Assembly (NCBI GenBank): GCA_903905455.1 | Contig: CAIVGN010000224.1 | Location: 1-64,000, forward strand | DNA length: 64,000 bases | Direction of reading: 5' to 3' | Source: an uncultured Archangium sp. | GTDB lineage: Bacteria > Myxococcota > Myxococcia > Myxococcales > Myxococcaceae | Shown: piece by piece, positions 35,913 to 40,177 of the stretch | How positions within the stretch are numbered: position 1 is the stretch's first letter | Layout of the letters: every line of letters starts with the position of its first letter | The notes under the pieces: generated by a model | Database searches by the model: none | Told to the model about the DNA's origin: nothing | What the model saw: the letters and a program-made list of their open reading frames with translations, nothing else | Program-made: the position numbers and the translations under genes

Positions 35913-36938
35913 ATGTCGCTCTCGCTCGATCAAGCGCTGGAAATGGCAGAGCAGGCCCTCGAAGACGGCGAGCTGGAGGACGCGCGGGTGCTGGCCGACC
36001 AGGCGCTGGCCCAGGCCCCCGACGATCTCGACGCCCTGGAGATCAAGGGCCTCGCCCTGGGTGAGCTGGGGGAGTTCGAAGACGCCGACGCGGTCTTCGA
36101 GCGGCTGCTGACCCTCGACCCGAAGCACACCACCGGGCTCATCGCCGCCGCCGACGTGAAGATCCGCCAGCCGGGCGACGATCGCGAGCGCATCGAAGAA
36201 GGCATGCTGCTGCTCGATCGGGCCGAGCCCCGGGCGAAGCGAGACGAGGCCCTGTCCATCGAGATGGACCTGCTGCGCGGCATCGCCTTCAACCAACTGG
36301 GCGACTTCGAAGACGCGCTCGACGCCTTCGCCCGGGTGCTCCACCTCGACCCCGATCACGGCGAGGCCCAGCTCGAGCGCGCCATCACCCTCTTCGAGCA
36401 GGGGCGCTTCCCCGAGTCCAAGAAGGCCTTCGATCGGCTCTCCCGCGACTACCCCGAGGAGCCCTGGTCGTTTCACTACCTCGGCCTGCTCGCCGAGCGC
36501 CGCGGGGAGAACCCCGAGCCGCTGTTCGCCAAGGCGCGCGCGCTGCAGCCCGCCGAGTTCCCCGCGCCGGTGTCGTTGTCCGGCGAGGCCTTCGACGCCG
36601 CCGTGGCCGACGCCATCGCCGCCCTGCCCGCCCACGCCAAGCCGCACCTCGACAACGCGGTGATCAACGTCGAGCCACTGCCCTCCGACGAGGAGATCGC
36701 CGAGGGGCTCTCGCCGACGATCCTCGGGGTGTTCTCCGGCACGCCGCTCGACGAGCGCCTGCCCACGCACGCGGGGCACCACGAGACGGTGCGCATCACG
36801 CTCTTCCAGAAGAACCTCGAGCGCTTTGCCCGCACGCGCGACGAGCTGCTCGAGGAGATCCGCATCACGGTGCTCCACGAAGTCGGCCATCTGCTCGGGC
36901 TCGACGAAGACGAGCTGTACGATCGCGGCCTCGACTGA
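35913..36938 (+). CDS. TPR protein with C-terminal zincin metallopeptidase-like domain
   Basis: Protein of 341 residues with no signal peptide. Residues 1-215 are TPR-like repeats (LDQALEMAEQALEDGELEDA; AFNQLGDFEDALDAFARVL). The C-terminal 110 residues match the minimal zincin family (PF06262-like): PTILGVFSGTPLDER and the metal motif H322-EVGH-LLGLDEDELYDRG, where E323 would be the catalytic base. Proteins of this family are short single-domain forms elsewhere; the TPR fusion seems a myxobacterial elaboration. The substrate is unknown; the repeats suggest it acts on, or docks to, a protein partner. The selenocysteine tRNA gene starts 29 bp downstream. Confidence 0.8.
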   Translation: MSLSLDQALEMAEQALEDGELEDARVLADQALAQAPDDLDALEIKGLALGELGEFEDADAVFERLLTLDPKHTTGLIAAADVKIRQPGDDRERIEEGMLLLDRAEPRAKRDEALSIEMDLLRGIAFNQLGDFEDALDAFARVLHLDPDHGEAQLERAITLFEQGRFPESKKAFDRLSRDYPEEPWSFHYLGLLAERRGENPEPLFAKARALQPAEFPAPVSLSGEAFDAAVADAIAALPAHAKPHLDNAVINVEPLPSDEEIAEGLSPTILGVFSGTPLDERLPTHAGHHETVRITLFQKNLERFARTRDELLEEIRITVLHEVGHLLGLDEDELYDRGLD

Positions 36939-36967: not shown

Positions 36968-37063
36968 GGCGGAGCGGCCGTTTCTGGTGAACGGCGCGGT
37001 CTTCAAAACCGTTGGGCTGGCGCGCGAGCGTCGGTCGGTGGGTTCGATTCCCATGCTCCGCCG
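36968..37063 (+). tRNA. selC: Selenocysteine tRNA (TCA)
   Basis: A 96-nt tRNA with the hallmarks of tRNA-Sec: an 8-bp acceptor stem (GGCGGAGC / GCTCCGCC), a long D stem (CCGTT / AACGG around TCTGGTG), anticodon loop CTTCAAA reading UGA, a long variable arm, T loop TTCGATT and discriminator G. CCA is not encoded. It shows that this organism decodes UGA as selenocysteine; selA, selB and selD must lie elsewhere. Confidence 0.93.
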
Positions 37064-37153: not shown

Positions 37154-37978
37154 GTGAAAGAGCGGTTTCAGTCGATCGAGGAAAAGACCAAGAAGCTGCG
37201 GGACGTGCTGCAGTTGAAGCGCCCCGAAGTGCAGGACTTCCTGGACAAGCTTGAGATGGCCTGGGTGCACCACGATTGTGCCCTGGAAGGATCCATCTAT
37301 TCGCCGCAAGAACTGACCGCGGCGCTCCACCCGGGTGCGGTGGTGGCAGAGGCGTCTCTGCTGCCCATCGTCTGGGAGATTCGCAACCACAAGGCGGCGG
37401 TCGACTTCATTCGCGAAGAGGCGAAGACGTCGAAGAAGCACGGGGCCATCACCATGACCTTCGTGCGGCGCGTGCACGACCTGCTCTCGGGCAACACGCC
37501 CGAGGCCCAGGAAGCACGCGCCCAGGCCGAGCGTCGCGAGCGCACCGAGAAAGAGCTCACCAAGGAGCGCGACAAGGCCGGGTTCCGCAAGGACATCCCG
37601 CTCCACAAGACGTACCTCCACGAGATCTCGCAGCCGGGCAAGGTACAGCCCCAGCTCGAGAAGCTGCTCGACTGGACGGCGTCCTCGGAGTTCCGCGAGT
37701 TCCACCCGTTGCTGCAGGCCGCACGCGTGCAGCACGAGTTCATCAAGATCTTCCCGTTCACGGACACGAGCGGAAAAGTCGGTCGCATGCTGACCAACTT
37801 CATCTTGATGCGGAACGGCTTCCTGCCGGTGGTGATCGTCTCGGTGGATCGGTCGAAGTACTACGAGACCTTCCGCGCGAGCTTCACCACGTTCTCCAAC
37901 CTGATGATGGACTCCATGGAGAACTCGCTCGACAACGGCCTGAAGTACTTCAAGGACCTGTCGCGGTTCTATCGGTGA
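37154..37978 (+). CDS. Fic-fold protein with a degenerate catalytic motif
   Basis: Protein of 274 residues from a GTG start. The fold is Fic: an N-terminal helix with L44-E45-G46-S, like the inhibitory-helix motif, and a core ending VQHEFIKIF-PFTDTSGKVGRM. Aligned with the AMPylation motif HPFxDGNGRxxR, the sequence at 200-211 reads F-P-F-T-D-T-S-G-K-V-G-R. The catalytic His is Phe200, Gly is Thr, Asn is Ser and the first Arg is Lys; only the last Arg211 is kept. AMP transfer by the usual mechanism is therefore not expected. A charged insertion (about 117-147) precedes the core. It is 1 bp from the DHH gene, so almost certainly in an operon with it. Confidence 0.8.
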   Translation: MKERFQSIEEKTKKLRDVLQLKRPEVQDFLDKLEMAWVHHDCALEGSIYSPQELTAALHPGAVVAEASLLPIVWEIRNHKAAVDFIREEAKTSKKHGAITMTFVRRVHDLLSGNTPEAQEARAQAERRERTEKELTKERDKAGFRKDIPLHKTYLHEISQPGKVQPQLEKLLDWTASSEFREFHPLLQAARVQHEFIKIFPFTDTSGKVGRMLTNFILMRNGFLPVVIVSVDRSKYYETFRASFTTFSNLMMDSMENSLDNGLKYFKDLSRFYR

Positions 37979-37979
37979 C

Positions 37980-39050
37980 GTGGTGGCGAGCGCGGCGGCC
38001 CCACTCTCAGTCGCGAGCCTCTCCACCAAGGGGAAGATCGATCGCCTGACGAAGCTGTTTCGCGGGCGCCGACGTCGGGCGCTCGTGATGACGCACGACA
38101 ACCCGGACCCCGACTCGATGGCGGCGGCCTGGGCCCTGGCCACCGTGCTCAGCGAGCGCGTGGGCGTGCCCGCTGACCTCGCGTACGGGGGCATCATCGG
38201 GCGCGCCGAGAACGCCGCGTTCGTGAAGACCCTCAAGCTGCCGATCCGGCACGTCGAGGAGGTCGACTTCGGCGAGTACGATCTCTTCGCCCTCGTCGAC
38301 ACCCAGCAGACCGTGGGCAACCACGCGCTGCCCGGTGACCTGCTGGCCGACATCGTCATCGATCACCACCCGGTGCGTGACGACGCCGTGGCCACGCCCT
38401 TCGCCGACCTCGGCGGTTCCTACGGCGCCACCTCCACGATGCTCACCGAGTACCTGCGCGCCGCCCGGCTCGACCCGGGGCCCGAGCTCTCGACGGCGCT
38501 CTATTACGGCATCAAGGCCGACACCCGCGACCTGGGCAGGCAGACGAAGGACCCCGACGTCGAGTGCTACCTGTGGCTGTTTCCGCGCATCGATCGCGAG
38601 CTGCTCTCGCACATCGAGCACCCGGAGCTGCCGGTGCGCTACTTCCGCCTCTACCACGCGGCCATCGAGAAGGCCCGGCTCTACACCGAGGCGGTGATCA
38701 CCGATCTGGGCGACGTCTACACGCCCGACATGGTGGCCGAGGTCGCCGAGCGGCTCTCGTTCATCGAGGGACCCAAGTGGTCGCTCGCCTACGGCAGCTA
38801 CCGCAGCCAGCTCTACCTGTCGTTGCGCGTCAGCGACAAGCGCATGAACGCGGGCCGGTTGATCCGCGAGACCTGCGCCCCGCTGGGTGGTTCGGCCGGT
38901 GGGCACGGGAGCATGGCCGGCGCGCGGCTGCCGCTGGCGGGCAAGAAGTCGCAGCGTGAAGAGTTCAAGCGCGACGTCGTACGGCGCTTCAAAGAGGCCT
39001 TCGGCGTCGACGGCGAGCGCGGCGTCTCGCTGCTGTCCGACGAGGCGTGA
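37980..39050 (+). CDS. DHH/DHHA1 phosphoesterase (NrnA-like)
   Basis: Protein of 356 residues with tandem GTG codons at the start. Metal-binding motifs: THDNPDPDSMAAAWAL near the N-terminus, ALVDTQQT, then VIDHHPVRDD, the name-giving DHH. The C-terminal DHHA1 domain holds GGSAGGHGSMAGARL. This layout fits nanoRNase/pAp phosphatases or cyclic-dinucleotide phosphodiesterases; which substrate is cleaved cannot be told here. Translation is likely coupled both ways: it starts 1 bp after the Fic-like gene and its stop overlaps the next gene's GTG by 4 bp. Confidence 0.85.
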   Translation: MVASAAAPLSVASLSTKGKIDRLTKLFRGRRRRALVMTHDNPDPDSMAAAWALATVLSERVGVPADLAYGGIIGRAENAAFVKTLKLPIRHVEEVDFGEYDLFALVDTQQTVGNHALPGDLLADIVIDHHPVRDDAVATPFADLGGSYGATSTMLTEYLRAARLDPGPELSTALYYGIKADTRDLGRQTKDPDVECYLWLFPRIDRELLSHIEHPELPVRYFRLYHAAIEKARLYTEAVITDLGDVYTPDMVAEVAERLSFIEGPKWSLAYGSYRSQLYLSLRVSDKRMNAGRLIRETCAPLGGSAGGHGSMAGARLPLAGKKSQREEFKRDVVRRFKEAFGVDGERGVSLLSDEA

Positions 39051-40177
39051 TCTACTGGGATCACAACGCGGGGGCTCCGCTGCTGCCGGAGATCGCCCGC
39101 CACCTGGTGACGGCCTTCGCCGAGGCCGCCGGCAACCCCTCGAGCGTGCACCAGGCCGGCCGCAACGCGCGGCGGCACCTCGACCAGGCCCGCGAGCGCG
39201 TGGCGAAGGTGCTCGGCTGCACGCCCCGCGAGGTCATCTTCACCGGCTCGGGGAGCGAGGCCGCGGCGATCGCGGTGCTGGGCGCCTTTCGCGCGCGCAA
39301 GGACCGGTCGAAGTCGCGGGTGGTGACCACCGCCATCGAGCACCCCTGCGTGCTGGGCGCGGTGAAGCAGCTCGAGGCCGAAGGCGCCGAGGTGATCCGC
39401 GTCGCGCCCGCGGTCGATGGGGCCGTGACCGAGCAGGCGTTGCTCGAGGCGCTCGACGCGAAGACCGCGCTCTGCTCGGTGCAGTGGGTCAACAACGAGA
39501 CCGGCGTCATCCAGCCCGCGGCGCGGCTGGCGCGGGTGTGCGCCGAGCGAAAGATCGTCTTCCACTCCGACGCCGTGCAGGCCTTCGGGCGCCTGCCCGC
39601 CTCGCTGCGTGAGGTCCCAGCCGATCTGCTCTCGCTCTCGGCCCACAAGCTCGGGGGCCCGGCGGGCGTCGGGGTGCTCTACAACCGGCGCGGCGTCGAC
39701 CTCGCGGGCCTCACCCCGGGGCACCAGGAGAACGGTCGCCGCGGGGGCACGCAGGCCGTGGCCATGGCCGAGGCGATGGCCCTGGCCGTGGAGCACGCGG
39801 TCGCCACGCAGGAGTCGGCGTCGGCCCATGTCGCGACGCTCAGAGATCGCTTCGAGCAGGCGGTGCTGGCCGCGCTGCCCGGGGTGGAGCGCAACGGCAG
39901 CGCGCCGCGCGTGGGCGCCACCAGCAACCTGTGGTTCCCCGAGGTCGACGGCGAGGCGCTGCTGATCGCCCTGGACCTCGAAGGCATCTGCGTGTCGACG
40001 GGCGCCGCCTGCGCCTCGGGCTCGCTGTCCCCGTCGCACGTGCTGCTCGGGCAGGGGCGCACGGCGGCCCAGGCCCACGGGTCGCTGCGCTTCTCACTCG
40101 GCGCGACGACGACGCAGGCCGAGGTCGACGCGGTGGTCTCGGCGTTGACCCGGCTGGTGCCCCAGAACCGCGGCTGA
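39047..40177 (+). CDS. Cysteine desulfurase (NifS/IscS type)
   Basis: A PLP enzyme of 376 residues that takes sulfur (or, in some members, selenium) from cysteine or selenocysteine. The PLP lysine is K201 in SLSAHKLGGPAG and the persulfide Cys is C322 in STGAACASGS; H99 (AIEHPC) and D175 (FHSDAVQ) fill the usual cofactor positions. The start MIYWDHNAGAPLLPE is typical (GTG overlapping the DHH stop). No iscU or nifU follows, so it is not a standard Fe-S operon. Its place 2 kb after selC invites a selenium-supply idea, but sulfur for tRNA thiolation is equally possible. Confidence 0.9.
   Translation: MIYWDHNAGAPLLPEIARHLVTAFAEAAGNPSSVHQAGRNARRHLDQARERVAKVLGCTPREVIFTGSGSEAAAIAVLGAFRARKDRSKSRVVTTAIEHPCVLGAVKQLEAEGAEVIRVAPAVDGAVTEQALLEALDAKTALCSVQWVNNETGVIQPAARLARVCAERKIVFHSDAVQAFGRLPASLREVPADLLSLSAHKLGGPAGVGVLYNRRGVDLAGLTPGHQENGRRGGTQAVAMAEAMALAVEHAVATQESASAHVATLRDRFEQAVLAALPGVERNGSAPRVGATSNLWFPEVDGEALLIALDLEGICVSTGAACASGSLSPSHVLLGQGRTAAQAHGSLRFSLGATTTQAEVDAVVSALTRLVPQNRG

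Follow-up and report, generated by a model that had tools for sequence, protein, structure and literature searches.

The window analysed here, a 64-kb stretch of DNA, is one contig of an 8.6-Mb genome assembled in 251 contigs. It contains an ORF of 274 aa that starts with a GTG codon at position 37154 and runs without interruption to a stop codon at 37976-37978, so that the gene is intact, as a preliminary description of this DNA had stated. The same description called the product a Fic-fold protein, and this holds: the Pfam Fic/DOC model (PF02661) is matched with an E-value of 2.2e-11 and a score of 44.9 bits, well above the curated cut-off of 24, and the assignment to the Fic family is thus not due to chance. 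Copies of the gene with 93-97% identity are found on Archangium sp. and Myxococcales MAG contigs, and the assignment of the genome to the myxobacteria is based on these. Nearly all Myxococcaceae orthologues have an inferred GTG start, two have TTG, and in other families the start is mostly ATG. The gene, the segments of its product discussed below and its neighbours are listed in Table 1.

Table 1. Coordinates of the Fic-like gene, of segments of its predicted product and of neighbouring features in the window.
Feature	Residues	Coordinates	Strand	Basis or remark
TPR protein fused to a Zincin_1 metallopeptidase-like domain		35913-36938	+	
tRNA-SeC (anticodon UCA)		36968-37063	+	90 bp upstream of the Fic-like gene
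His-less Fic-fold protein		37154..37978	+	274 aa; ORF, Pfam PF02661, Myxococcota homologues, dN/dS
Inhibitory-helix segment HDCALEG	40-46	37271..37291	+	Profile alignment to FICD, family conservation
Flap segment RKDIPLHKTYLHEI	145-158	37586..37627	+	Family and outgroup alignments
Degenerate FIC motif FPFTDTSGKVGR	200-211	37751..37786	+	Compared with canonical HPFx[DE]GNGRxxR
RSKY	233-236	37850..37861	+	Arg233 and Tyr236 invariant; conserved also in canonical class II Fics
DHH/DHHA1 phosphoesterase		37980..39050	+	Pfam DHH and DHHA1
NifS/IscS-type cysteine desulfurase		39047..40177	+	Pfam Aminotran_5; TIGR03402 match below its cut-off

The nearest solved relative of the family is human FICD, which was retrieved when the family profile was searched against PDB sequences (E 3.7e-29 over 218 positions, most of the protein). 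An AlphaFold2 model built from 14 close homologues reached a mean pLDDT of 50, too poor to place residues, and a Foldseek search with that model returned FICD (4u0s) as its top match with an E-value of 9e-3, which is weak and consistent with a Fic fold. All spatial statements about the Fic-like protein made here thus derive from aligning its sequence with those of solved relatives.

Relative to the canonical motif, FPFTDTSGKVGR has the catalytic His changed to Phe, the first Gly to Thr, the Asn to Ser and the first Arg to Lys; the second Gly (Gly207) and the last Arg (Arg211) are kept. We compared this motif across 103 orthologue rows representing 92 distinct sequences, from the window's genus out to distant families. 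Residue 200 is Phe in 86 of the distinct sequences, Tyr in six and His in none. The substitution reported in the preliminary description is therefore fixed, and no orthologue with a normal HPFxDGNGR motif was found among the 92; the HxFx[DE]GN[GK]R signature with its catalytic His is likewise absent from these sequences, the window's protein reading FPFTDTSGK. Other statements of that description need qualification. Asp204, the metal-binding acid said to be kept, is Glu or Asp in most orthologues, but Lys, Ser, Gln or other residues occupy the position in deep clades. The Gly-Asn pair said to be gone is indeed altered at the first Gly (position 205), which is variable, and at Asn206, which is Ser or Thr in the family apart from Asn in 3/92, but the second Gly, Gly207, is invariant. 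Arg211 is invariant in the family, in agreement with the earlier claim that it is kept.

A protein search retrieved a match in 181 of 195 Myxococcota genomes. With a 36-row profile and a threshold of E<=1e-20, 177/195 genomes matched (190 matches less 13 outside the phylum), one 1.3 Mb genome being among those with a homologue. The gene is mostly single-copy across the phylum. Within the genus, dN/dS (NG86) is 0.03-0.14 over all pairs and 0.04-0.12 against the window's gene, values that indicate strong purifying selection and, together with the lack of any loop His among the 92 orthologues, substantiate the earlier view that the gene has been maintained. In a tree that combined 34 family members with the out-of-phylum homologues and canonical Fics, the His-less sequences form one clade on a long stem of 0.76 substitutions per site, with a bootstrap value of 84 (printed after re-rooting). 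Judged from these sequences, the subfamily is of single origin and vertically kept. His-less relatives outside the phylum were found in 2/189 sampled genomes, and both are nested inside the family clade. One of them (genome G321) reads MPYGRFSGR and has Tyr at position 151; the other (genome G284) reads YPFSAWSGI, carries His151 and Tyr154, and is split over two contigs. These two members could be explained by transfer or by an older origin of the subfamily. A phage origin was rejected because no relative was found among 2.9 million viral contigs, and a plasmid origin because, among the matches listed, solely distant (27% or less) canonical-type Fics were found.

To view the rest of the active site, we compared the 92 family sequences with the 18 nearest canonical class II Fics, which come from out-of-phylum genomes and three plasmids. 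Gly46, Arg145, Pro201, Gly207, Arg211, Arg233, Tyr236 and the inhibitory Glu45 are kept in both groups. The loop His is present in 17/18 of the canonical proteins, as against Phe or Tyr throughout the family. The flap shows a second difference: His151 and Tyr154 are invariant in and specific to the family, whereas in the canonical proteins position 151 is mostly Ile or Val and position 154 has no dominant residue, the outgroup flap having been aligned with the family's own model, so that its register may be off by one or more residues. Flap residues Arg145 and His156 are invariant in the family and common in canonical Fics too; the positions of His156 and His40 are each occupied by His in 6/18 of the canonical set. 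The invariant polar set of the family thus comprises H40, R145, H151, Y154, H156, R211, R233 and Y236.

The N-terminal segment resembles in part the inhibitory helix of class II Fics. Glu45 aligns with FICD Glu234 and is Glu or Asp in the family (Asp in 11/92), and His40 and Gly46 are invariant. With respect to the class II motif [ST]xxxE[GN], the Ser/Thr is replaced by Asp or Glu at position 41 in all sequences, and Glu/Asp45 and Gly46 are kept at the FICD position. The pair that would mark a FICD-type deAMPylase, inhibitory Glu and loop His, is incomplete in the family, the Glu being kept and the His absent. The arrangement also differs from a class I FicTA module with an adjacent small antitoxin bearing the inhibitory helix, as here the helix segment lies in the same protein and the neighbours are tRNA-SeC and the DHH gene.

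By profile alignment, the remaining correspondences to FICD are Phe200 to His363, Ser206 to Asn369, Arg211 to Arg374, Arg233 and Tyr236 to Arg396 and Tyr399 (numbering from the profile alignment), and His151 to Val316, the last with an uncertain flap register. In FICD, the adenine pocket is lined by Val316 of the flap together with Val360 and Leu403, and Asn407 touches adenine; Asp367 binds Mg, the GNG makes up the anion hole, and both ribose and the gamma-phosphate are bound by Arg374 (PMC4342408). The inhibitory Glu competes with the gamma-phosphate for Arg374 (PMC3667792). Column 244, which aligns with Asn407, has no conserved counterpart in the family. Because new invariant residues have appeared in the flap, simple decay is argued against, and the aligned sequences suggest an active site that looks rebuilt rather than decayed.

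The preliminary description placed the gene in a tight operon with the DHH and NifS genes. Locally this is correct, as a single base pair separates the Fic-like gene from the DHH gene, which in turn overlaps the NifS gene by 4 bp, but the neighbours differ outside the class. A DHH gene lies downstream in at least 31/71 loci and an AAA ATPase gene upstream in at least 18/71, both being lower bounds because several loci are short. The DHH linkage was seen only in class Myxococcia-type genomes. In the window's class, frequent downstream neighbours of the Fic-like gene are an endonuclease IV-like gene, DHH, NifS and a divergent Ser/Thr kinase gene, and ilvE or an AAA ATPase gene often lies upstream. 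The endonuclease IV-like gene lies between the Fic and DHH genes in several lineages and was not found in the window's genome or genus, and the AAA gene of the window's genome is on another contig (C51). AAA ATPases directly upstream were seen in several families, some of them outside the class (L134:3704-5050, L072:1820-3187), as weak matches to general AAA models. Due to this restriction of the linkage to one class, neither DHH nor NifS makes a good candidate for an obligate partner, and both were set aside as the key to function; gene order does not indicate a stable partner. A functional link to tRNA-SeC was also discarded, since this gene adjoins the Fic-like gene in some Myxococcaceae only. 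Separately, SelA is encoded in the same genome (C151, E 4.5e-139), and with tRNA-SeC present selenocysteine insertion is likely functional in this genome. The gene for the TPR protein upstream is kept beside tRNA-SeC in related genomes.

We propose, with a probability of about 0.5, that the Fic-like protein is a non-AMPylating, ligand-binding regulator (a sensor or reader) whose ligand would be contacted by the rebuilt flap and by the arginines that are kept. For this reading, sequence, conservation, selection and phylogeny come from the present analysis and the roles of residues from the literature on FICD and other Fics; from these we infer the ligand binding and the regulatory role. The FIC active site of a class II-type ancestor, with its N-terminal inhibitory helix, would have been rebuilt before the Myxococcota radiated. 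The loop His would have become Phe or Tyr, the Gly-Asn of the anion nest a variable residue followed by Ser, and the flap over the cleft would have gained the invariant His151 and Tyr154, their predicted place in the cleft being subject to the uncertain flap register. AMPylation, in which the loop His is the base, and FICD-type deAMPylation, which uses the same His, would then both be absent. The Glu-Arg pair is retained, but the loop His, the Asn of the motif and the Asn that contacts adenine are lost; this combination argues against standard AMPylation, and on the aligned sequences standard AMPylation and deAMPylation both appear unlikely. Retention of the Glu45/Arg211 pair and of Gly207, Arg233 and Tyr236 makes it probable that the cleft can still accommodate a ligand with a phosphate group. 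A nucleotide appears doubtful in this role, given that the Asn407 counterpart is not conserved and that the Mg acid is lost in deep clades. The H363A variant of FICD can neither AMPylate nor deAMPylate, and it traps AMPylated BiP (PMC8373988); because the anion nest of our family is also altered, we do not extend this comparison to the binding of an AMP-protein.

Invariance of His and Tyr is equally typical of working enzymes and of binding proteins. The preliminary description's term pseudoenzyme is best taken as a putative label, since the invariant polar residues gained in the flap, His151 and Tyr154, fit new chemistry too. The main alternative, a tentative one, is an active enzyme in which flap His151, perhaps with Tyr154 or His156, has replaced the FIC loop as the source of the general base, and which would use another donor or reaction, as AvrB does. 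All in-phylum sequences that lack the loop His carry His151 (86 Phe/His and six Tyr/His pairs, n=92), and the out-of-phylum member L179/L192, with Tyr200, also has His151 and Tyr154. In Fic enzymes the flap sits over the target slot and the alpha-phosphate (PMC8401265), and the Fido protein AvrB, whose motif is divergent, acts as a rhamnosyltransferase that needs no metal (PMC10866546). Against this, the out-of-phylum member L178 has Met for the loop His and yet Tyr at position 151, and both the substrate and the reach of His151 to it are putative. The fuller proposal that the catalytic His was relocated to the flap, as His151 with Tyr154 and His156, that a hydrophobic residue took its old place, and that the resulting new chemistry serves a core function of the phylum is in our view rather doubtful.

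A further reading is a non-catalytic protein-protein scaffold on the Fic fold that has no ligand. BepC is reported to act as such a scaffold and still works with a mutated FIC motif (PMC8097203), and the ATP/Mg motif positions 204, 205 and 208 vary in our family. A pure scaffold is nevertheless improbable here, as it does not account for eight polar residues that are invariant across the phylum, most of which map to the cleft and flap. Less probable by far is conventional Fic AMPylation or deAMPylation through a residual or assisted activity in which Tyr or Phe is tolerated. The inhibitory Glu is kept in the family, and an IbpA His-to-Ala variant reportedly keeps some activity (discussed in PMC4454073); opposed to this are the inactivity of FICD H363A in both directions (PMC8373988) and the concurrent changes to the anion nest, the Mg acid and the adenine contact. 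Decay with loss of function, for which the degenerate catalytic motif might speak, is refuted, as is a single degenerate copy or pseudogene, by the low dN/dS, the homologues in 177/195 genomes and a motif conserved in its changed form.

The usual picture of Fic proteins is one of AMP transferases, toxins or effectors that are gained and lost by horizontal transfer. The gene described here is near-universal, mostly single-copy and vertically kept in the Myxococcota, and it has lost the catalytic residue that defines Fic enzymes and acquired a new set of invariant residues. In the open-licence papers searched, we found no description of a Myxococcus Fic protein or of a subfamily of this kind; on present sequences, it is a phylum-wide variant of a known fold, of single origin, with a rebuilt active site, and undescribed in the literature searched. 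Because the protein passes the Pfam cut-off, annotation pipelines would label it simply a "Fic family protein", and the missing His is easily overlooked. The family offers a clean case for asking what the Fic fold does without AMPylation, akin to SelO for pseudokinases, and Myxococcus xanthus, with its routine genetics, is a suitable host for testing the gene.

Among known systems, human FICD/HYPE, a class II Fic that AMPylates and deAMPylates BiP, shares with the family the inhibitory Glu, the second Gly, the last Arg and the Arg396/Tyr399 positions. It differs in having His363 where the family has Phe or Tyr, Asn369 where it has Ser, Thr230 where it has Asp or Glu, and Val316 in the flap region of His151, and the family lacks a conserved Asn407, the TPR domain and the membrane anchor. 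Bacterial class II Fics (our outgroup, L180-L198) are similar in length and layout, with an xxNAIEGN helix, a flap, a Fic core and DRxxYYxxL, but 17/18 have the loop His, 18/18 have DGNGR, and none has the H151/Y154 flap. One sequence, from the Mycetohabitans endofungorum megaplasmid NZ_CP062179.1 (L196), reads YPFVDGNGR, with Tyr for His in an otherwise canonical motif, and lies near toxin-antitoxin genes.

Of the five Fic/Doc motif groups described by Khater and Mohanty (PMC4454073), one has Gln in place of the His, and the pattern [FY]P[FYW]xxx[ST]G fits none of them. Their Doc clade D2, Qx[FY]x[DE][GV]NKR, resembles our family in that the catalytic His is replaced throughout, but it is Doc-type, has Gln rather than Phe or Tyr at that position, and keeps GNKR where the family has SG[KR], so that the family does not fit the D2 motif. 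A second Fic/Doc gene in the window's genome (L002, C142:29992-30279) reads QPFIDGNKR, with Gln for His, and does fit clade D2; another Fic in the same genome has an intact IHPFSDGNGR.

AvrB, of the Fido superfamily, has a Fic-like fold with a divergent motif and shows that other chemistry is possible on the fold; it is a rhamnosyltransferase effector, was absent among the PDB matches of the family profile, and is likened here by description. BepC and the degenerate Beps of Bartonella resemble the family in retaining function with a non-canonical FIC motif, but they are class I secreted effectors, and BepC has the His and is changed at other positions. As the Bep, BepC and AvrB cases show, function can persist with a degenerate Fido motif.
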